This document shows, piece after piece, positions 3,398-14,905 of a stretch of 32,522 nt of DNA (position 1 is its first letter; each line of letters begins with the position of its first letter). The position numbers and the translations under genes are program-made. The DNA comes from Lentilactobacillus sp. Marseille-Q4993. GTDB taxonomy: Bacteria; Bacillota; Bacilli; Lactobacillales; Lactobacillaceae. Below the pieces are notes generated by a model. That model made no database searches and had not been told where the DNA came from. It worked only from the letters and a program-made list of their open reading frames with translations. The stretch is from assembly GCF_951230165.1 (NCBI RefSeq), contig NZ_CATNVB010000030.1:1-32522 (forward strand), read 5' to 3'.

Positions 3398-4054
3398 ATG
3401 GCGAAAACTAAAGACTTTAAACAACGACTTTATTATCTGTGTCTGTCGTTGATCATCAATTCTGCCGGTAACGCTCTGGCTATCTCCACCAACCTTGGTA
3501 GTGCCGTATGGACAGCGTCTGCCGTTAATTTATCCAAGACTACCGGGATTGCCTTAGGAACGACCCTGTTCGTTTACGGGGTCGGGGTCACGATTATGAA
3601 TCAATTATTGATTGGTTACTTTGACCGGCGGCGATTCTTCTCCAACCTGATATTCACACTGCCATTTAGTTACATGGTCCAAGGTGCTCAAGCCATTTTC
3701 GACTGGATGGGGGTTCCCAATTATAACTTTTGGGAACGACTGATTCTAGACGTCATCGGGTTGTTTATGGTTGCGGTTGCCGTATCAATGTATTCACGAG
3801 CTAACTTGGTAATGCACCCCAACGACGACTTAGCCTACATTGTCCGGTTCAAGTTCGTTCACGGAAGTGCGATAATTTCCCAGTGGACAAGTTACGTCCC
3901 GCCACTATCAATTACTTTGATTTGTTACCTAATTACCCACAATCTGTACGCAATTGGTTTTGGAACCGCGTTTGCCCTAATTTTCCAGGGGGCAATGATG
4001 GGCTGGTCAGACACCCATGCCTTTCCAAAACTCAAGCATCACGTCGATCTTTAA
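3398..4054 (+). CDS. YczE/YyaS-like integral membrane protein
   Basis: A 218-aa polytopic membrane protein with about five hydrophobic helices. The N-terminal half has the GNALAISTNLGSAVWTA segment typical of the YczE/YyaS family, and the length fits that family (about 210-220 aa). The family's molecular function is not settled; in Bacillus YczE has been linked to surfactin production. The start ATG follows CAGGAGA by a normal distance. Its last 23 bp overlap the end of the convergent hydrolase gene, and its terminator lies inside that gene. Own promoter at 3341-3368. The family call is from recalled motif resemblance and is fairly secure; no substrate can be inferred. Confidence 0.75.
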   Translation: MAKTKDFKQRLYYLCLSLIINSAGNALAISTNLGSAVWTASAVNLSKTTGIALGTTLFVYGVGVTIMNQLLIGYFDRRRFFSNLIFTLPFSYMVQGAQAIFDWMGVPNYNFWERLILDVIGLFMVAVAVSMYSRANLVMHPNDDLAYIVRFKFVHGSAIISQWTSYVPPLSITLICYLITHNLYAIGFGTAFALIFQGAMMGWSDTHAFPKLKHHVDL

Positions 4055-4892
4055 TGAAGGCTGAGATTAATTTCTCGGTCTTTTTTGTTTCGGGTAAATC
4101 CGGCCAGAGGACATAGTCATGAAAAGCATCGGTAAATTTATGACTCTTTACCGTCGTATCAACCGCCCGCTCAGCAACTTCAATGAATCTCTCCGTATCC
4201 GGAGATAACATTTCATTTTGGCTATAGAAAACCAGGAAGTTCTGGCCGCGCAGGTTTGCCGGGTCAAAGACATCATGTAGTTTGTACTCACCAAGTGAGT
4301 CTTCAAATTCATCACCGATTTGCTTCAGCACATCATAATCCAGAAAAATATCGTCTTCCGATTGGCGCTTAATCTTTTGGTCATGAAGTTTAGGGTCAAA
4401 CCACGGGGAAATTAAGATAATTCCCGCCACCGACTCAAACGTTGCTAAAACACTTTCAACCGCAGGAATGGTTCCTGCCGAATCTGCCAAAATATAAGTT
4501 GGCAAATCTCCAGAGTTAGTAATCACTTCTTTGATAGCTCGCTGGGAAAATTGAATCAAATCAATACTCTTCGATTGGAATAAAAGTGGGTAATCAACAA
4601 CCTTAATCGTTGCGGGAACCATGTCCCCAATCCTGGTAACCAACCGCAGCTGATCCTCATTCATTGGCACCGTCATTGCCCCACCATGAAAGTAGATAAT
4701 TTGAGCAATTGGTGCTTGCTCTGGTTCAATCGTTACGATTTGACCTGTATCAATTTTAGCAACTTTGCCCTCGAATTCAGGCTGATTAAACACACTATAC
4801 CGCTGATTTGGCTTCAAAAAGCTGTGACTTACATTGCTTTTGTACTGATTCTTTGCTAATTTGTTAAATTGGCGTCGCGCCTTGAAACTCAT
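4032..4892 (-). CDS. alpha/beta hydrolase (hormone-sensitive-lipase-like esterase)
   Basis: A 286-aa soluble alpha/beta hydrolase, probably a carboxylesterase. YFHGGA at 67-72 is the oxyanion-hole motif of the HSL/esterase class. Ser138 in ADSAG is the nucleophile, Asp232 (region NEMLSPD) a likely acid, and His258 in AFHDYVLWP the likely base. The nucleophile elbow is A-x-S-x-G where G-x-S-x-G is usual. No signal peptide, so cytoplasmic. Start ATG 4892 has GGGGTGA seven bases upstream. A perfect cre site and TATAAA box lie 40-65 bp upstream, so catabolite control is likely. It overlaps the convergent YczE-like gene by 23 bp. The natural substrate is unknown. Confidence 0.85.
   Translation of the reverse strand: MSFKARRQFNKLAKNQYKSNVSHSFLKPNQRYSVFNQPEFEGKVAKIDTGQIVTIEPEQAPIAQIIYFHGGAMTVPMNEDQLRLVTRIGDMVPATIKVVDYPLLFQSKSIDLIQFSQRAIKEVITNSGDLPTYILADSAGTIPAVESVLATFESVAGIILISPWFDPKLHDQKIKRQSEDDIFLDYDVLKQIGDEFEDSLGEYKLHDVFDPANLRGQNFLVFYSQNEMLSPDTERFIEVAERAVDTTVKSHKFTDAFHDYVLWPDLPETKKTEKLISAFIKDRRDA
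4059..4087 (+). terminator. terminator of the YczE-like gene, inside the convergent CDS
   Basis: GGCTGAGA and TCTCGGTC (4059-4066, 4073-4080) pair with G-U wobbles and are followed by six or more T. The structure lies in the coding 3' end of the hydrolase gene on the other strand. Confidence 0.6.
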
Positions 4893-4930
4893 GGAATCAC
4901 CCCATTTTTACTTAATTTTAGTAATGCTGA

Positions 4931-4956
4931 TTTATAGGCATTTGTAATCGTTTACA
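4931..4956 (-). promoter_or_regulatory. cre site and -10 box of the hydrolase gene
   Basis: TGTAATCGTTTACA (4943-4956) fits the CcpA consensus TGNAANCGNNNNCA on both strands. On the minus strand TATAAA (4931-4936) gives a -10 box, so the cre sits between -35 and -10 and should repress. It is also about 80-90 bp upstream of the first small RNA start. Confidence 0.65.
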
Positions 4957-4973
4957 ATAATTTATCAGATAAG

Positions 4974-5027
4974 TTCACAAAAAGTTCACATTTTGTTCAT
5001 TGTTTAGTAACAACTAAGCATTATATT
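4974..5027 (+). promoter_or_regulatory. direct-repeat-controlled promoter of small RNA 1
   Basis: TTCACA at 4974, TTCACA at 4985 and TTCATT at 4996 are spaced exactly 11 bp apart (6 + 5), as in binding sites of OmpR/PhoB-type response regulators. A TATATT -10 box begins at 5022, 26 bp after the third repeat begins. TTGTTT at 5000-5005 is a possible weak -35. The same geometry recurs at 5178-5231 and 5560-5613. Confidence 0.6.
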
Positions 5028-5033
5028 TAAAAC

Positions 5034-5172
5034 CGTAGCATAGGTAATGAGTTTGTTACTTGTGTTAGCGATAAATTAAATCCCCCTTTAATTTATTACT
5101 TTTATATTCATATTCTTCCCCTAGAATATAGGTATCTTGAAGGTAAGACATCCCCGTGTCTTATCTTTTTTA
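5034..5172 (+). ncRNA. small RNA candidate 1 with C-rich loops
   Basis: About 138 nt without a reading frame. Structure in order: a 5' hairpin (AGGTAA/TTACTT, about 5038-5065); a perfect 10-bp hairpin at 5071-5096 with loop TCCCCC; a 7-bp hairpin at 5110-5129 with loop TCCCCT; and a terminator at 5140-5167 with an 11-bp stem and CCCC loop, followed by TTTTTT. Every loop after the first shows a C run in otherwise very AT-rich DNA. C-run loops in Gram-positive small RNAs (for example Staphylococcus RsaE, streptococcal csRNAs) pair with Shine-Dalgarno sequences, so a translation-repressing role is inferred. Closely related in layout to candidate 3. Transcription start is inferred from the -10 box. 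Confidence 0.65.
5140..5172 (+). terminator. terminator of small RNA 1
   Basis: AAGGTAAGACA pairs with TGTCTTATCTT (one G-U) around a CCCC loop, then a run of T. The loop is of the same type as the other C loops, so the terminator may also be a targeting hairpin. Confidence 0.75.
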
Positions 5173-5177
5173 TTTCG

Positions 5178-5238
5178 TTCATAAAAGTTTCACAAATTGA
5201 ACAAAGATTAACTATATTTAGTGGGTAGTATATACAAT
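5178..5238 (+). promoter_or_regulatory. direct-repeat-controlled promoter of small RNA 2
   Basis: TTCATA at 5178 and TTCACA at 5189 are 11 bp apart, with a degraded AACAAA at 5200. At the same +26 offset as in the other two promoters lies TAGTAT (5226-5231). TACAAT at 5233-5238 is a better -10 by sequence, so the start is uncertain by a few bases. Confidence 0.45.
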
Positions 5239-5383
5239 ATCGAAAGCAAAGGTTTTCGATACACATATAATAGAACAATTAATTATTAAATAATAATTCA
5301 TTGTCCCCTTTATTTTAGATCTCCCCCGAAAAGAAGACTATATTGGTTAAAAGAAAAGGTTCCCCCGCCTTTTCTTTTTTTTG
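5238..5383 (+). ncRNA. small RNA candidate 2 with exposed C runs
   Basis: About 145 nt without a reading frame. It begins with a hairpin TATCGAAA/TTTCGATA (5238-5261) whose loop is GCAAAGGT. An AT-only hairpin follows at 5275-5304 with one mismatch. Next come two C runs in weakly structured sequence, CCCC at 5305-5308 and CCCCC at 5323-5327, and a terminator with loop TTCCCCCG at 5349-5382. It shares the C-run theme and promoter type with candidates 1 and 3 but not their sequence. The TTGTCCCC stretch can pair with the ribosome site of the 80-aa gene at 3187; this is only eight bases and unproven. Confidence 0.55.
5349..5382 (+). terminator. terminator of small RNA 2
   Basis: AAAAGAAAAGG pairs perfectly with CCTTTTCTTTT around a loop containing five C, then T to 5382. 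Confidence 0.8.
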
Positions 5384-5548
5384 CGCAAAATTTGATGACC
5401 TTGATCTAATTGACAACTTTAATCTAGGAACCTGTCGTTATTAAAAATTGTTTGGAAAGTGGTCAAAATTGATCAGAATTGTCGAATTTCACTTCAAAAA
5501 AACTTTTTGCTTCAAATTTATAGTCCAATATACCCCATTCCATAAGGG

Positions 5549-5613
5549 TTTTGACGACATTCACAAAATGTTCAAACTTTCATCCTTTTTTCTTAATATC
5601 TGTTCTGTATATT
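5549..5613 (+). promoter_or_regulatory. direct-repeat-controlled promoter of small RNA 3
   Basis: TTCACA at 5560 and TTCAAA at 5571 are 11 bp apart. Weaker repeats sit at 5549 (TTTTGA) and 5582 (ATCCTT). TATATT begins at 5608, again 26 bp after the third 11-bp step, exactly as upstream of small RNA 1. Confidence 0.55.
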
Positions 5614-5619
5614 AATAAG

Positions 5620-5819
5620 CATAGGAAAAGGGATGACTTAAATATTTCTTTTCTTACCCCCCAATAATACGTAATAAATTAATCCCCCGTTAGTTTATTA
5701 TAAGTTTCATATTCATATTCCCCTCAGAATATAGACATATTTAGATAAGACACCCCCCTCGTCTTATCTTAACTTTAAAAAAATACCTTCAAGGTCCCCC
5801 CGACCTTGGAGGTTTTTTT
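5620..5819 (+). ncRNA. small RNA candidate 3 with five C runs
   Basis: About 200 nt without a reading frame. In order: hairpin TAGGAAAAG/CTTTTCTTA (5622-5656); single-stranded CCCCCC (5657-5662); an 11-bp hairpin at 5672-5700 with loop TCCCCCG; hairpin ATATTC/GAATAT at 5715-5732 with a C-rich loop; a 9-bp hairpin at 5743-5769 with loop ACCCCCCTC; and a terminator at 5785-5819 with loop CCCCCCG. The hairpins at 5672-5769 correspond one for one to those of candidate 1, with base changes that keep pairing. Candidate 1 ends at the third of these, while candidate 3 adds a separate terminator. It ends 181 nt before the acyl-CoA dehydrogenase gene, so it is not a leader of that gene. Confidence 0.65.
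5785..5819 (+). terminator. terminator of small RNA 3
   Basis: ACCTTCAAGGT pairs with ACCTTGGAGGT (one G-U) around a loop with six C, followed by seven T. Confidence 0.85.
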
Positions 5820-5893
5820 ATGCTTTCAATCAAGTCCAAGATCTCCTCTCACATTATCAAATCAAATTCTCTTTATATTCCAATAGTATATAT

Positions 5894-5922
5894 TTGAATT
5901 ATTCCAATTATTATGTTTAAAT
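5894..5922 (+). promoter_or_regulatory. probable promoter of the acd-etfBA operon
   Basis: TTGAAT (5894-5899), 17-bp spacer, TTAAAT (5917-5922). The -10 is weak. ATTCCAAT occurs twice nearby (about 5877 and 5901) and could be a regulator half-site. Confidence 0.4.
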
Positions 5923-6000
5923 GAACTCGTAAACAGTAAATAAGGATTAATGATATTTTTTTGCCCAAGTTTGTGAAAAAATGAGCAGGAGGAATTTAAC

Positions 6001-7125
6001 ATGTTTGATAACACAATGACCGCAAAACAGAAGATGCTCCACGAAATGGTTGTCGACTTTACCGAAAACGAAGTTGCCCCATTTGACATGGAGATTGACC
6101 GGAAAGGTGACTTCACCGATGGTCTCTTTCAAAAGCTGATTGATACCGGATTTCTAGCATTGACGTTGCCTAAAGAGTACGGTGGTGCTGAATTCGATCC
6201 TATCGCTGTCGCCCAGACGATTAACGATTTGTCATACGGAAACGCTAGTGTTGGCGTTACCTTGGAGGGTCATTACAAGAGTATTGATCAATTGCTCTTA
6301 TATGGGAATCAAGCTCTCCTCGACGAATACTTGCCAACTGCCTCACAAAGAATATTTGCATTCTCTAACACCGAGCCAAGTGGTGGTTCTAATCCAACTG
6401 GGATTCGGTCAACTGCCGTTAAGGAAGGTGATCACTGGGTCCTTAACGGGGACAAGGTGATGATCACTAACGGTGGTTTAGCTGAAGTTTATACCGTGCT
6501 TGTCAAGACCGGGGATAATGAATTTTCCTGTTTCGTAGTTGATAAGGATATGCCTGGGTTTACATTCGGTAAACGCGAAGACTTTATCGGCCTCCGCGGG
6601 ACTCCAGTTGGCGAGATTGTGATGGACAACATTGTGGTGCCTGAATCTCACTTGCTTGGCAAACGGGGTCAGGGAATTGAAATCGCGGACCAAGCCCATG
6701 ACGATGCCAGAATCCTTATGGGAGCCGTTCTAACTGGAATCATGGAACACGCTTTAAAGATTGCCACCGACTATGCAAAACAACGAAAAGCGTTGGACAC
6801 CCCCCTAACCGAACTTCAGGTCATCCAAGAAAAAATTGCCAACATCGCAATTTCAAAGGAATTAACCAAGCTTGTTTACCAACAAGCAGCTATCAATAAG
6901 CAAAACCATCTCCCATATATGGAAGAAGCCGCAATGGCCAAAACGTTTGGTAGTCGTTCCGCAGTTGCCGCAGGTGATGATGCCCTTCAAGTGCTTGCAG
7001 GCTATGGTTACAGTCGCGAATACCCAATCGAGCATTTGATTCGGGACGCCAGAGCACTCGAAATTGCCGAAGGAACCGTTGAAAAAATGAGATCAGCAAT
7101 CGCCAAAGCTGAGTTTGCTAAGTAG
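6001..7125 (+). CDS. acyl-CoA dehydrogenase / enoyl-CoA reductase
   Basis: A 374-aa FAD flavoenzyme of the acyl-CoA dehydrogenase family. It oxidises an acyl-CoA or, in fermentative hosts, reduces an enoyl-CoA with electrons passed through EtfAB. The N-terminal helical domain carries LPKEYGGAEFD. FSNTEPSGGSN near 120-130 is the flavin/substrate segment (usually LTEPxAGSD). Glu357 in AEGTVEKMR is at the place of the catalytic base, and RDAR precedes it. Full length. AGGAGG lies before the ATG. First gene of a three-gene operon, 11 bp before etfB. No hydratase, thiolase or CoA-transferase is nearby, so the substrate is open; acryloyl-, crotonyl- or cinnamoyl-type CoA reduction (as in AcrC or CarC) are candidates. 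The small RNA cluster lies directly upstream. Confidence 0.9.
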   Translation: MFDNTMTAKQKMLHEMVVDFTENEVAPFDMEIDRKGDFTDGLFQKLIDTGFLALTLPKEYGGAEFDPIAVAQTINDLSYGNASVGVTLEGHYKSIDQLLLYGNQALLDEYLPTASQRIFAFSNTEPSGGSNPTGIRSTAVKEGDHWVLNGDKVMITNGGLAEVYTVLVKTGDNEFSCFVVDKDMPGFTFGKREDFIGLRGTPVGEIVMDNIVVPESHLLGKRGQGIEIADQAHDDARILMGAVLTGIMEHALKIATDYAKQRKALDTPLTELQVIQEKIANIAISKELTKLVYQQAAINKQNHLPYMEEAAMAKTFGSRSAVAAGDDALQVLAGYGYSREYPIEHLIRDARALEIAEGTVEKMRSAIAKAEFAK

Positions 7126-7136
7126 GAGGTCAAATC

Positions 7137-7925
7137 ATGAAAATCGTAGTTGCAATCAAACAAGTTCCAAAAACTGATTCAGTTAAAATTGATGAAAAGA
7201 CAAACAACCTCGTCAGAAACGGGGTCGAGGGGGTTATCAACCAGTTCGATAAGAACGCCATTGAAGCCGCCCTCCAAATTAAAGATGAAACCAACGCCGA
7301 AGTCATCGCCCTTTCAATGGGACCAAATGACTTTGAAACATCCCTCCGTGGTGCTCTTGCAATGGGAGCAGACTCAGCGGTATTACTAAGTTCTCGGGCA
7401 TTCGCAGGTGCGGACACTCTTGCTACTGCAGCCGTCCTTGCATCAGCCATCAAAAAAATTGGTGACGTTGACCTTGTAGTATTTGGTCGCCAAGCCGTTG
7501 ATGCCGATACTGGTCAGGTTGGTCCAATCGTCGCTGACAAACTAGATTTACCGCAAATAACATACGCATCATCACTCAGAGTTATTGGCGATTCACGAGT
7601 ATCAGCGGTTAGCCTCCTCGACCACTCAGAAAAACGCATCAGTGCTCAACTGCCGGCAGTCGTAACAGTTAGATCTGAACTTAACAAGCCCCGCTACGCA
7701 ACTCCTAGAAATATCATGCTTAGTTTTGATAAGGACATCACCGTTTGGTCTGAAAAAGATCTTGATGTTCCAGAGAACGAACTTGGTCAAGCAGGATCAC
7801 CAACCATCGTAACCAAAGTTTACTCGCCTGAAAAAGCAGCTAAGCAAACAATGAATCTTGAAGGTGACCCAACAACCGTTGCTGAAAAATTAATCTCAGA
7901 ATTATCTGCCAAGAACGTGCTTTAG
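7137..7925 (+). CDS. etfB: electron transfer flavoprotein, beta subunit
   Basis: EtfB, 262 aa, forms with EtfA the soluble flavoprotein that links NADH (and in bifurcating types ferredoxin) to the acyl-CoA dehydrogenase. The N-terminus MKIVVAIKQVPKTDSVKID is typical. GRQAVDADTGQVGP at 117-130 resembles the QAxDGDTAQVGP loop of clostridial bifurcating EtfB, and not the mitochondrial/respiratory form (QAIDDDxNQTGQ), so NAD(H) and a second FAD rather than AMP may bind here. AGGAGG ribosome site, 11 bp after acd and 11 bp before etfA. Identity is sure; bifurcation is inference. Confidence 0.95.
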   Translation: MKIVVAIKQVPKTDSVKIDEKTNNLVRNGVEGVINQFDKNAIEAALQIKDETNAEVIALSMGPNDFETSLRGALAMGADSAVLLSSRAFAGADTLATAAVLASAIKKIGDVDLVVFGRQAVDADTGQVGPIVADKLDLPQITYASSLRVIGDSRVSAVSLLDHSEKRISAQLPAVVTVRSELNKPRYATPRNIMLSFDKDITVWSEKDLDVPENELGQAGSPTIVTKVYSPEKAAKQTMNLEGDPTTVAEKLISELSAKNVL

Positions 7926-7936
7926 GAGGAATCGAT

Positions 7937-8896
7937 ATGACTAACAATTTAGAAACCTGGGTTTACATTGAAAACCACTTTAATCACGTAGATCCCAGCA
8001 GCTTGCAATTAGTTACCAAAGCAAAAGAAATCAGTGATGGTCCCGTTGTGGCGGTAATCACAGAAACCCCTAACCAGAACTTGGAATCAGAGGTTAAACC
8101 ATACGGTGCTGACAAAATCGTCATCATCAAGGATGAAGCCCTTAACGAAGCTAACGACGACACCATTGCTAACGCCCTAGTGGAATTAGCCAAGAAGGAC
8201 TTACCTAACGCATTTCTATTCAGTGCCACCGTCACTGGACGTTCAATCGCCCCTCGAGTTCAATCAGAGTTAAAAACCGGTTTGACGGCCGACTGTCTTG
8301 ATTTGCGATTTGAGGATGACCTACTGATTGCTTCAAAGCCTTCATACGGGGATAACGTGATGTGTGAAATCACCTGCCCTAAGACAAGACCCCAAATGGC
8401 TTCAGTTCGACCAAACACTTTTAAAGCAGTCGAAGCAACGCCAACCAGCGAAGTCGTAACGGCCAACCTTGCCGTTAAGGTTGACGACCGTATCACGATT
8501 GACACTGAAACCCCACTGGTTGCTGACGACACTAACATCAACTCCGCAACTCGCATCATCGCTTTGGGCCGTGGCGCTCAGTCCGAACAAGTAATTGCCC
8601 ATGCCAAGGCGGTTGCTGCCCGAATTGGTGCTACCATTGCCGTTAGTCGCCCACTAACCGATTTGCCTGAGTTTAGTCACGAACAACAAATTGGCCAAAG
8701 TGGAAATACCGTTGCCCCAGAATTGATTATTAACCTTGGAATTTCCGGTGCTGTTCAGTATACCGTTGGAATGCAAAATGCCGACACTATCGTTTCCGTC
8801 AACACCGACGAAAACGCCCCAATTTTTGAATCATCGGATTATAAATACGTGGGTGATGCTGAAGAATTCCTCCAGGGGTTATTAAAACAATTATAA
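7937..8896 (+). CDS. etfA: electron transfer flavoprotein, alpha subunit
   Basis: EtfA, 319 aa, partner of EtfB. The N-terminal domain is 1-190 with FSATVTGRSIAPRVQ (95-109). The C-terminal FAD domain begins near 200, with GRG at 211-213, SRP at 237-239, GQSGNTVAP at 253-261, GISGAVQY at 268-275 and NTDENAPIF at 289-297, all at the usual places. There is no N-terminal ferredoxin domain as in some clostridial forms. AGGAGG before the ATG; last gene of the operon. No clear terminator follows before the next promoter. Confidence 0.95.
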   Translation: MTNNLETWVYIENHFNHVDPSSLQLVTKAKEISDGPVVAVITETPNQNLESEVKPYGADKIVIIKDEALNEANDDTIANALVELAKKDLPNAFLFSATVTGRSIAPRVQSELKTGLTADCLDLRFEDDLLIASKPSYGDNVMCEITCPKTRPQMASVRPNTFKAVEATPTSEVVTANLAVKVDDRITIDTETPLVADDTNINSATRIIALGRGAQSEQVIAHAKAVAARIGATIAVSRPLTDLPEFSHEQQIGQSGNTVAPELIINLGISGAVQYTVGMQNADTIVSVNTDENAPIFESSDYKYVGDAEEFLQGLLKQL

Positions 8897-9853: not shown

Positions 9854-12800
9854 TTAGTTTTCCCTTCGCTTGAAGATTTTACCTAACCCGAATAATGAAG
9901 CTGCTAGTAACAATACCCCTATTACTGAGGTGCTTGCTGATTGTTTTTCACCGGTTTGTGGTAACTTACCCTTAACAAACTCAGGGTTAGTTTCATTATC
10001 ACCGGAGGCATTACTATTGGCTGATGAACCATTAGTTAAACTCGTATATGTTGGGGTACCATAGGCATTCCTAGCATGATTTCTCAAGGATGTAAGTTTA
10101 TACCCTGTAGTTGTTGGAGTGTTCGTCTCATCCCCTAGCGTGTTTGAAACACCAAGTTTCTCAGGCGGAACGTTTGTCTTGTTACCGGGTGTGTTTGGAA
10201 CACCTGGTTTCTCAGGCGGAACGTTTGTCTTGTTACCGGGTGTATTTGGAACATTAGGCTCCTCTGGTGGCACATTGGTCTTGTTGCCGGGAGTATTTGG
10301 TACGTTTGGTTCCTCAGGGGGCACGTTTGTCTTATGACCCGGAGTATTAGGAACATTTGGTTCTTCAGGAGGCACGTTTGTCTTATGACCCGGAGTATTA
10401 GGAACATTCGGTTCTTCAGGGGGCACGTTTGTCTTATGACCCGGAGTATATGGTGGAACAACTGTCTTTTCTGGATTTATTTCAATTTCTGGCAGAAATG
10501 CGGTTGCGATTGGAATTTTTGTTCCGCTTGAATATGGTGGCAATGTAACCTCTGAAGGCTCATTAGTCAACTTTGGCAAACCAGCGACTTCAATGCTCTT
10601 GATCGTCTGCAAATTACCACTTTGCCCTCCAGTTAACGTATAAGTCGGGGCAAGCTTTGGTGTCGTCGGAACAGAGTTATCGCTTGTATTCTTCAAATAA
10701 TAGAAATAAACTTGAATATTACTATTTTGACTGACTCCAGACCGAATTGGATTAGCAAAAAATTCTGCTAGTGGATCGTTAGTCGTAAAGCGATACGTTT
10801 GGTTCTTTTTAGTTATGACCGCATCACTATTAGAATTTTGAATAATTGAATAACCTACTAACTGATAGCCAGCAATTGTTTTCTTAATAGCCTCACCACC
10901 AATACCACCAGCTAAAATATTCTTCTTTTCATCCTTGGTGAAATCAAGTGATTGAGGATTATTCGGATCATATTTATGAACTATATAACCACTAAGAATT
11001 GCGGTATCATTGTTGAACGCATTATTGCCCCATGCCTTTTCATCAACTCCGTTACTATACACATTAACCGTCAAAGTGCCTGGCCTTGAACTTGATTTAC
11101 TTGCTGTATAAGAACCATCCGTACTATTACCAGTCAATCCCTTCTTATGCAAATAATTAATTGCTGAATTATTATTACCAACAATCAAATTAGCCAGCGT
11201 CGTTACTAATGATTTATACTGATTATTAAAACCATTATTCCCCTCAAGAAAATCAGGAAATTTACTAGCATCATTTCCTGACTTATCGCTCTCAATCTTA
11301 CCAGCCTTGATCGGACTATCCTTGTGACTATTATTATAGTCACTAACGGCTTTGGTGTATGCATCCTCAAGGGCTTGCAACCTTTGACCTTGATTTGCTA
11401 CAGCTCCCTTTTCTAACGTCTGATATGTTTTACCATTTTCATCAGTTACGGCATCGACTGATTTTAGTTCGGTTTTAGTACCATTGACGGCATCAATATA
11501 TGCATAACTCGTTTGAACCACTTTATTTCCAAGGGCATTCAAATCATCGGTGATGGATTGTCTATCCGTTGAAGCAACGCTATCAATCATCCTAATTGGC
11601 TTACCGTTTGAATCCAAGGACGTAGAGTCTTTATTGATTGCAGTATTCCAGGCGATGACTGCATCGATTTGAGCTTGAGCCTTGGTGTTGATGTCTTTAA
11701 CTTTTTGCTGCAAAGCACTGAAAGTATTAGTGATCTTTTGAAGTTGAGTGAAATCCGTTATGTTCTTTGCCATATTAGCTGAATATGTCTTTGCGGTATC
11801 AGAAAATCCGTTGAGCTTTGCTAAACTATTTTTAAAGTTTGTCAACGCATCTTCATCATATGCTTGCTTAGTATGATCAACTTTAGCCAAGGCTGTTTTG
11901 TAAGCCTCTAAGGCTACTTGATAATTATGGATCTTTTTATAATCAAACTTATTTAGCACTGTTTCTAAAGCAGTTTGTGTGTCCTCTACAGTCTGCGTAC
12001 TTTTTGTCAAATCATCTTCAGTAGTAGCTGGGTTTGACAGCTTAGAATTGTAGTTTTTGACGCTTTCATTCCATGCAGTCAAACTACTTTGTAATTGAGT
12101 TATTTCCCCATCTGATTTAGTCAAATCTTTGTAGATATCATTAGCTTTTTCATAAGCATTACGCTCCTGGTTGTTGTTAACGGCTTTAATTAACTGATCA
12201 ATTGATGGACCTGCTTCAACTTCTCCGATCTTAGAATCAGCATGTTCACTATTATAGTTATCAACAGCTTTATTATAAGCAGTCCGAGCATTATCATATG
12301 CCGTCTTACTTGCGTTAAGGGCATTCGTATCTATTGCTACGCCCTTTTCAGCATTGGCCTTGATATCCTTCAGTTGCTTATTCAACTTGGCCAACGCTGC
12401 ATTCAATTGCGCTTGCGTATCATTAACATCGGGTGCTCCCACAATCTTTTGGATTTGCTTATTGAATTGATCTGCCAATTGATCATACTTCGATAACGTT
12501 TTTTCTTGTTCAGTTCCATTCAATGTGACACTCTTGATGCCATTTTGATAAGCGTTGACGAGCTCATCAACTTTATCCTTCTTGGTAAGGTAAGTGGCAT
12601 TGCTAGTTTTAATTTTCCCAATTAAAACATTGATTTCACTGGTATTGGCAGGATTTTTCTTTAGTAGATTGTTAAGCTTGTCAACCAACGCATTTACATC
12701 CTGAGCTTGCTTATTTGCATCAGTTGTTGCTTTATTAGTTTCGTCATATGAAGATGACTTCGTTACCACTTTGGATGCCGATAAAACTTGTGGGCTTGGC

Positions 12801-13387
12801 TTAGTTGATTTCCCAGTTTTACTATTATCAATAACCGTGGCTGATTTTTTATTTAAATCACTTGCTGGTTTTGCCGTCGTGGTTGATGTTAAATTACTAT
12901 CTGTCTTCGTTGTAGACTTAGTACTTTTAACCTGTGATTTTTGAGTTTCGCGATTTGATGCAACATCTACGGTTTTGGTATTTGAAGCATTAGGTTGCTT
13001 CTGTTGATTACTAGTAGTTACCTTATTCTGAATCTGACTGTTACTACCAACTTGGTCGGTTGGTTGTGAATTAGCGTCATTCACAGACTTAGTAGCAACG
13101 TTCTGTTTAGTAGTCTGTGGATCCGTAGCCGGAGTCATAGCTTTATTTGCACCAGTAGATGTAATAGTCGGCGTGCTCGTTACAGACTTCGAGTTAGCCT
13201 GAACTTTCGACACTGTCGGTGTCGTGCTTGTTTGCGTATTATCAGCATGAACTCCTTGATCAAACGATAACAGAGAAGCCCCCATTGATAGCGTTGCTAA
13301 TCCAGCAAACACCCACTTCTTACCGTCTTTATACATTTTATAATGAATTTTGGTATCCATTTGGTTGCCCAATTGTTTACCAGTCAT
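9854..13387 (-). CDS. LPxTG-anchored surface protein with KxYKxGKxW signal peptide
   Basis: A 1177-aa cell-wall protein, probably an adhesin. KMYKDGKKW near 17-25 marks the KxYKxGKxW signal class, with cleavage near residue 48 (VHA/DN). Residues about 50-200 are Ser/Thr/Asn/Gln-rich and probably disordered or glycosylated. About 210-700 is a long helical stalk with two related segments (AYNKAVDNYNSEHADS and AYTKAVSDYNNSHKDS). About 720-930 is a compact beta-rich-looking domain. Six 17-aa PGHKTNVPPEEPNVPNT-type repeats form a proline-rich wall-spanning part. LPQTG at 1142-1146, a hydrophobic helix and KRREN complete the sortase signal. The ribosome site is GGGGG at 13397-13401, nine bases before ATG. 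The ligand is unknown. Confidence 0.92.
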   Translation of the reverse strand: MTGKQLGNQMDTKIHYKMYKDGKKWVFAGLATLSMGASLLSFDQGVHADNTQTSTTPTVSKVQANSKSVTSTPTITSTGANKAMTPATDPQTTKQNVATKSVNDANSQPTDQVGSNSQIQNKVTTSNQQKQPNASNTKTVDVASNRETQKSQVKSTKSTTKTDSNLTSTTTAKPASDLNKKSATVIDNSKTGKSTKPSPQVLSASKVVTKSSSYDETNKATTDANKQAQDVNALVDKLNNLLKKNPANTSEINVLIGKIKTSNATYLTKKDKVDELVNAYQNGIKSVTLNGTEQEKTLSKYDQLADQFNKQIQKIVGAPDVNDTQAQLNAALAKLNKQLKDIKANAEKGVAIDTNALNASKTAYDNARTAYNKAVDNYNSEHADSKIGEVEAGPSIDQLIKAVNNNQERNAYEKANDIYKDLTKSDGEITQLQSSLTAWNESVKNYNSKLSNPATTEDDLTKSTQTVEDTQTALETVLNKFDYKKIHNYQVALEAYKTALAKVDHTKQAYDEDALTNFKNSLAKLNGFSDTAKTYSANMAKNITDFTQLQKITNTFSALQQKVKDINTKAQAQIDAVIAWNTAINKDSTSLDSNGKPIRMIDSVASTDRQSITDDLNALGNKVVQTSYAYIDAVNGTKTELKSVDAVTDENGKTYQTLEKGAVANQGQRLQALEDAYTKAVSDYNNSHKDSPIKAGKIESDKSGNDASKFPDFLEGNNGFNNQYKSLVTTLANLIVGNNNSAINYLHKKGLTGNSTDGSYTASKSSSRPGTLTVNVYSNGVDEKAWGNNAFNNDTAILSGYIVHKYDPNNPQSLDFTKDEKKNILAGGIGGEAIKKTIAGYQLVGYSIIQNSNSDAVITKKNQTYRFTTNDPLAEFFANPIRSGVSQNSNIQVYFYYLKNTSDNSVPTTPKLAPTYTLTGGQSGNLQTIKSIEVAGLPKLTNEPSEVTLPPYSSGTKIPIATAFLPEIEINPEKTVVPPYTPGHKTNVPPEEPNVPNTPGHKTNVPPEEPNVPNTPGHKTNVPPEEPNVPNTPGNKTNVPPEEPNVPNTPGNKTNVPPEKPGVPNTPGNKTNVPPEKLGVSNTLGDETNTPTTTGYKLTSLRNHARNAYGTPTYTSLTNGSSANSNASGDNETNPEFVKGKLPQTGEKQSASTSVIGVLLLAASLFGLGKIFKRREN
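10139..10444 (-). repeat. six 51-bp in-frame repeats in the surface protein gene
   Basis: Six units of 17 codons, three with GHKT, three with GNKT, the last two diverging (PEKPGVPNT, PEKLGVSNT), followed by a seventh degenerate start. They can vary in number by recombination. Confidence 0.9.
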
Positions 13388-14640: not shown

Positions 14641-14905
14641 AAAAAAAGCGCCCTTGAAAATTAATCCAAGGACGCTTCTGCGCGGTACCACCTAATTTAC
14701 AGTCTATAAAAACTGTCACTTCAAGCACGGCCTTTTGGCGATGCTCTAACACTGTAAGGTGTGTTAACCGTAGCTACTCAGCATTCGTAGCTACTGCTTC
14801 AAGGTTACTTTCATCAAACGTGTTGATACCTCTTTTCACTTTCCGAGGCTCCCTGTGATCAGCAACAAATGATTACTCTCCTTATCGCGGCATTTCTAAT
14901 CAGAT
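14641..14905 (-). promoter_or_regulatory. T-box leader (probably tRNA-Val)
   Basis: On the minus strand the T-box AGGTGGTACCGCG (plus 14681-14693) is exact and can form the antiterminator. It overlaps a terminator with an 11-bp stem (14646-14656, 14667-14677) and seven T. Stem I is upstream with the loop-E pair AGTA / GAA. After that GAA come A and then GTA, which by the usual spacing is the specifier, hence valine. AGT (Ser) or AAC (Asn) would result from a one- or two-base shift. Uncharged tRNA would allow read-through into the reductase gene 45 bp downstream. Confidence 0.9.

Follow-up and report, generated by a model that had tools for sequence, protein, structure and literature searches.

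Positions 4974-5822 of the window (the whole 32,522-nucleotide stretch of DNA that was analyzed) very likely hold three tandem, separately transcribed small RNA (sRNA) genes under the control of a response regulator, with C-rich loops that would block G-rich Shine-Dalgarno sites. The source genome (G000) belongs to Lentilactobacillus, and the array sits in a gap (4893-6000) bordered on the left by an alpha/beta hydrolase gene on the minus strand (4032-4892) and on the right by an acyl-CoA dehydrogenase gene on the plus strand (6001-7125). The segment beyond the right border (6001-8896, plus strand) encodes this acyl-CoA dehydrogenase followed by both electron-transfer-flavoprotein subunits, a set that is uncommon for a lactobacillus. 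Elsewhere, the minus strand carries what reads as the gene of a large, secreted surface protein (9854-13387), which has proline-rich repeats and an end of the LPXTG-like type, as well as a T-box leader (14665-14897) that is the sole Rfam match at the gathering score within the window.

The gap contains 13 runs of at least four C, starting at 4900, 5082, 5118, 5152, 5305, 5323, 5362, 5533, 5657, 5684, 5720, 5753 and 5796. All of them fall within three hairpin units except those at 4900 and 5533, in agreement with the original prediction of eleven C runs divided among three units, which had the sites right and some coordinates one base low. In 2000 simulations of the gap, base shuffling yielded a mean of 0.8 runs (maximum 5) and a first-order Markov chain a mean of 4.8 (maximum 13), so that the number of C runs is by itself only moderately unusual. 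The case for the array rests on the position and conservation of these runs, rather than on their number.

Unit A, a predicted sRNA gene of ~139 nt (5035..5173; all features of the array are on the plus strand), comprises a 5' hairpin, hairpins H1 (5074..5093, loop UCCCCC) and H2 (5110..5129, loop with CCCC), and a terminator (5140..5173, loop UCCCCG). Its predicted fold (5035-5173) has an energy of -39.3 kcal/mol (z -6.75), which none of 200 shuffles equaled. The unit is preceded by a direct-repeat box, TTCACA-N5-TTCACA-N5-TTCATT (4974..5001), and by a likely -10 element, TATATT (5022..5027). Unit C, predicted at about 200 nt (5620..5822), is arranged as a 5' hairpin, a C6 linker (ACCCCCCAAU, 5654..5669), H1 (5671..5701, loop CCCCC), H2 (5715..5732, loop CCCUCA), an extra C-loop hairpin (5743..5769) and a terminator (5785..5819, loop with CCCCCC). 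Its fold (5620-5822) is also more stable than all of 200 shuffles (-54.3 kcal/mol, z -7.82), and it follows a box reading TTCACA-N5-TTCAAA (5560..5576), in which a third site is not clear, and a likely -10 element TATATT (5608..5613). The extra hairpin occupies the position of the relatives' terminator: in the window's species, this old terminator (5743-5769) no longer has a T run, and another terminator with a C loop follows on its 3' side, so that the RNA gains one more C loop.

Unit B (5241..5382, about 140-155 nt) is weaker than A and C as an sRNA gene, and shares their plan loosely. Its fold (5241-5382) reaches -26.5 kcal/mol (z -2.98, with 1 of 200 shuffles as good), and two of its three C runs lie outside stable helices in the predicted fold, those at 5305 and 5323 being in linkers and that at 5362 in the terminator loop (5349..5382, loop with CCCCC). 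The box upstream is degenerate (TTCATA-N5-TTCACA-N5-AACAAA, 5178..5205), and the promoter is ambiguous between TATATT (5213-5218) and TATACA (5231-5236). The RNA ends of the units were placed from their -10 boxes. The three units all close with a hairpin and a T run, as had been predicted, and a terminator scan of the window listed those of A and C and not that of B, a plain hairpin with a T8 tail. A promoter scan of the window listed nothing at A or C, as expected for activator-dependent promoters.

To place the array within its genus, the segment 4960-5830 was compared by BLAST with 60 genomes (its own and 59 others), yielding matches in all 23 genus-mates and three matches outside the genus (E 0.003-0.007). 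The type-A alignment (A1) comprises 24 RNAs from 23 genomes; it omits the type-A RNA of G012, along with an incomplete second copy from the edge of a contig of the same genome (L033), and the second type-A copies of G010 and G016, both of which keep all three C loops. Two type-A genes lie side by side in G013 (L007 1276-1712), G010 (L014) and G016 (L015). The type-C alignment covers 20 genomes, with G002, G007, G014 and G020 outside its search, and a further alignment (A3) comprises 30 RNAs. On reading the array loci of those four genomes, no type-C H2 was seen; by eye, their RNA joins a C-type leader to an A-type H1, which suggests either a single ancestral gene that may have been duplicated later, or loss and fusion. 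The covariance model returned one match each in G002, G007 and G014, with G020 outside that sample, and G007 presents an additional box and CCCC upstream. Within the array itself, the model matched unit A at 5068-5172 (E 5.5e-17, the unit A sequence being in the training set), unit C at 5671-5775 (E 1.1e-11, outside the training set) and, weakly, unit B at 5275-5381 (E 0.0023). Judged by sequence, A and C started out as copies of a single gene and have since diverged, and B is loosely related to them.

The stems of these RNAs covary and their loops remain constant. For type C, 94.6% of cells are paired and 61 are double-change cells, versus 18.2 upon shuffling; for A and C combined, the corresponding values are 96.0% and 74 versus 21.7, and none of 500 shuffles reached the observed count in either set, in a control that does not keep the relatedness between sequences. 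Sliding the stems by 1-3 columns lowered the paired cells to 33-47% in both sets, a comparison that favors the named stems over the slid ones, as the structures were hand-named from the same folds. The strong covariation is located in the H1 and terminator stems, and the nearly invariant H2 stems provide no covariation support. For type A alone, the RNAalifold covariation term is weak, at -0.63, and double changes are seen in 4 of 24 pairs. The type-A 5' hairpins vary in sequence; by eye, they were seen in all of the 25 single-sequence folds except those of G002, G007 and G014.

At least four C are present in H1 of all 24 type-A RNAs, in H2 of 23 and in the terminator of 22 (lost in G007 and G014). 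In the 20 type-C RNAs, they are kept in the linker of 18 (lost in G003 and G011), in H1 of 18 (lost in G009 and G012), in H2 of 19, counting the closing base in the run, and in every terminator. The H2 run is lost from both types in G005, and the terminator run of unit B is lost in G005, G006 and G012. Since the C runs are constant while the stems covary, the loop is the part kept by selection, and the stem largely its holder. Genus-wide conservation, stem covariation and loop invariance thus support, for A and C, the original prediction of sRNA genes displaying C runs in loops and linkers, which had named homologs lacking C-rich loops or covarying stems as evidence against it; for both types, the homologs proved favorable.

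The promoter repeats, in contrast, had been overlooked in the original prediction of C-loop units, as had the recurrence of the architecture in other genera. Repeats with an 11-bp period precede each unit (TTCACA-N5-TTCACA, exact at A and degenerate at B and C), and direct repeats of this kind would be typical of a site for an OmpR-family response regulator. Across 24 genomes, the three-site pattern TTCACA-N5-TTCACA-N5-TTCA matched 28 times in 19 genomes and its reversed control never; 26 of these matches are at the array and two inside an ORF. The exact two-site pattern TTCACA-N5-TTCACA matched 103 times (reversed control, 11), with 43 matches at the array and 60 elsewhere by hand count. We read 28 non-array loci, holding 32 of these approximately 60 sites and partly picked for recurrence between species, and 15 of the 28 adjoin secreted or envelope-type genes, a proportion that is not an unbiased rate. 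These genes encode secreted proteins with S-layer-like signal peptides (L119, L122-L124, L130, L131), glycosyl hydrolase 25 (L120, L135), a transglycosylase-associated protein (L090, L101, L133) and a membrane-like protein of 168-179 aa (L118, L121, L129, L134), which is followed by a sugar-nucleotide dehydratase-like ORF in L118, L121 and L129. Pfam searches, which covered L120, L090, L122 and two L118 proteins, supported the glycosyl hydrolase 25 (L120) and transglycosylase-associated (L090) assignments and gave no family for L122; the other genes were named by reading. No common theme emerged from the other 13 loci. The promoter of a transporter gene at G000:C43 carries a loose box. Taken together, the box sites away from the array point to a regulon of the cell envelope.

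The recurrence of this arrangement was assessed in 301 Lactobacillaceae genomes. The covariance-model search of this family that had been proposed for the array recovered, with model R1, all 15 genomes of the genus, most of them in the training set, and gave weak matches in 14 genomes outside it (best E 2.4e-5). Approximately four of these 14 loci (L161, L162, L165, L170) show C-rich loops and a repeat resembling the box when judged by eye, and the rest look like chance terminators on inspection. A pattern capturing the architecture, TCACA-N5-TTCACA followed 40-100 bases on by CCCC, was found in 118 of the 301 genomes, some of them coding or chance matches (L186, L204, L205), and in 25 of 40 genera, compared with 12 genomes for the reversed control, the counts being of genomes because matches overlap. 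Outside the genus, 105 of 286 genomes are positive. Thirty fetched loci, which are not a random sample (14 from genus g4 and 9 from g12, among the matches listed), contain 34 C-loop hairpins, against 2.6 from shuffles and none on the opposite strand, against which the comparison is biased by the CCCC that the selection pattern demands; six of the 30 have no C-loop hairpin. Genus g4 has tandem genes of the box and C-loop kind (L191, L216, L217). Two g12 genomes carry a box-driven putative RNA of ~340 nt (L215 1406-1789 and, on the reverse strand, L226 1666-2047), each with six C-loop hairpins by script and eight by eye, besides further CU-rich linkers. What unites the putative class beyond the genus is promoter and loops rather than overall sequence.

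Among the eight OmpR-type output domains encoded by G000, the leading candidate for the regulator, as yet only a lead, is an ArlR/CovR-like protein (L141, G000:C2:87494-88177), whose best partial PDB matches are ArlR and CovR domains and whose best full-length matches are other OmpR-family regulators. L141 is matched at E 1e-75 in 277 of the 301 genomes. The architecture is present in one of the 24 genomes without L141 versus 117 of the 277 with it (Fisher p 1e-4, phylogeny ignored), and L141 also occurs in 160 of the 183 architecture-negative genomes; the first comparison favors a regulator that is necessary but not sufficient. At none of the eight OmpR-type loci of G000 was a similar repeat seen on the strand of the regulator gene. 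Another of these proteins, encoded near pstS (L144 1036-1737), has a receiver half that looks degenerate, with NCBIfam matches mainly to the output half. Co-occurrence profiling covered two of the eight, the second being L145 (G000:C31:16270-16968), which looks CiaR-like. If L145 were the regulator, the RNAs would be the lactobacillar counterparts of the streptococcal csRNAs, which are driven by a response regulator through a TTTAAG-N5-TTTAAG box and carry stretches complementary to translation starts (PMC3091779). We regard this as very unlikely: the presence of L145 is unlinked to the architecture (69 of 118 positive versus 94 of 183 negative genomes, p 0.24), all 14 genomes of genus g55 are architecture-positive and none has L145 at E 1e-60, and L145 was dropped as a candidate because its distribution does not follow the trait. 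No CiaR-named model appeared among the NCBIfam matches listed, which were up to 25 of the best per protein.

Control by PhoP, which would make these phosphate-starvation RNAs, is somewhat less improbable, but still unlikely. TTCACA presumably fits a loose TTHACA-type half-site, and the pst promoters of the genus present repeats with the same 11-bp period as the sRNA boxes. Upstream of pstS (L080-L088), PhoP-like TTTACA/TTTACG repeats are one letter off the sRNA box. The nine pst promoters, from five genomes and excluding a weak pstS match (L089), comprise five with TTTACA-N5-TTTACA and four, by eye, with TTTACG-N5-TTTACA, and none with TTCACA-N5-TTCACA, whereas the sRNA boxes read TTCACA and the other box sites often adjoin envelope genes.

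In the mechanism that we favor, an OmpR-family response regulator would bind the TTCACA-N5-TTCACA-type repeats and activate sRNA promoters that have no good -35 element; the RNAs would present open C runs in linkers and in the loops of hairpins and terminators, and these would pair with the G-rich Shine-Dalgarno regions of mRNAs, blocking translation. For a C5 run, GGGGG is a better pairing partner than AGGAGG, which counts against a simple choice of targets. A scan of the source genome for AAGGGG-N3..11-ATG gave 190 sites versus 85 for the control, and shows merely that such sites are common. Precedents for a C loop acting on a G-rich start region are found in LhrC (PMC4132741, PMC5880928) and sX13 (PMC3771888). 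These precedents also argue against the rather improbable alternative that the RNAs are transcribed and act as a sponge titrating a protein or another RNA. A multivalent decoy would suit several C loops per RNA, with at least six C-loop hairpins in the L215 and L226 RNA, and a sponge acting on the C-rich RoxS has been reported from B. subtilis (PMC8216469). It is far less probable still that the hairpins serve the downstream gene as leaders or attenuators, or are remnants of terminators, without action in trans: the array does lie upstream of the acyl-CoA dehydrogenase gene on the same strand, but the frame, strand and sequence downstream of it all differ among the relatives read, each unit has its own box, and the loops are more constant than the stems.

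Extending the proposed Shine-Dalgarno block to the family is a more tentative step, which we would not yet back over its alternatives. Many Lactobacillaceae might share an undescribed post-transcriptional branch of the envelope-stress regulon, in which a single conserved ArlR/CovR/LisR-like regulator drives fast-evolving C-loop sRNAs. On the same tentative footing, the only part of these RNAs to stay constant could be the anti-Shine-Dalgarno C loops, of which each RNA would have three to at least six, and loop number could tune how many mRNAs one transcript silences. This family-wide circuit is of greater interest than the array itself, and also less certain. Were it real, two-component-controlled C-loop sRNAs with different sequences would recur in listeriae, streptococci and lactobacilli, through convergence or through descent keeping only the loops. 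With a promoter box that is conserved, a regulator candidate and a clear element for pairing, the family lends itself to separate tests of its regulator, its signal and its targets in food bacteria.

Several known sRNAs resemble the array in part. RsaE/RoxS carries a C-rich motif aimed at Shine-Dalgarno sites; its model (RF01820) matched best at unit B, with 18.5 bits against a gathering score of 79. Rfam scans by gathering score and by E-value were used to search for a known family, and gave no related one. The streptococcal csRNAs of the CiaRH regulon share several sRNAs per genome, promoter repeats spaced by five bases and potential pairing with translation starts (PMC3091779). Their TTTAAG-N5-TTTAAG box differs from the TTCACA/TTCATA type seen here, and the pairing stretch of those in S. 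pneumoniae is an unpaired region between two stem-loops. The alpha-r14 or cuckoo RNAs of alphaproteobacteria have three hairpins with the same anti-Shine-Dalgarno motif on highly different stems (PMC10746234); that motif is CCUCCUCCC, whereas the loops here are C4-C6, and constant loops on freely changing stems are found here at H1 and the terminator, the H2 stem being invariant. The four CcsR RNAs of alphaproteobacteria, a distant phylum, also lie together (PMC10253847), and CcsR1-4 form one processed transcript together with a protein gene. In Xanthomonas, sX13 has three hairpins with CCCC/CCCCC loops, one of them UCCCCCU as in H1 of unit A, and represses mRNAs that carry GGGG close to their start (PMC3771888); it belongs to another phylum and to the polA locus, and the excerpts of that report mention no direct-repeat box. 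Accounts of sRNAs in lactobacilli are few, and a 2021 study of L. casei knew of a single earlier one (PMC8220740). A description of these C-loop RNAs was not found among the matches listed from the openly licensed papers searched: the text of PMC8220740 and PMC13109727 contains neither "C-rich" nor "CCCC", and PMC5643018, in the part consulted, concerns a different, long RNA.

The closest parallel is LhrC of Listeria monocytogenes (RF00616), with five near-identical copies (LhrC1-5) of 111-114 nt that require the LisRK two-component system and respond to envelope stress (PMC4132741). Its CUCCC sites, carried by loop A, the linker and the loop of the terminator, bind the G-rich stretch ahead of the start codon (PMC4132741, PMC5880928), a precedent for C runs in terminator loops, which the original prediction had called unusual for a tandem array. 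Shared with LhrC are the presence of multiple copies (A and C homologous, B loosely so) and of C runs in a hairpin loop, a linker and a terminator loop, the linker run being confined to B and C. The LhrC model matched nothing in G000 at E 0.001, nothing in the window at the gathering score and, even at E up to 10, nothing in 4893-6000. Among 20 LhrC promoter loci fetched, 18 were usable (L246 and L247 were not) and one presented TTCA-N7-TTCA; the consensus of LisR is described as not known in the excerpts of PMC4132741. Given the lack of a match to the family model, and of the repeat in most of the LhrC promoters that were read, the best reading is that the array would work like LhrC, yet is no member of its family. 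The array is a real, conserved tandem of C-loop sRNA genes and defines a new family within a known kind of sRNA.
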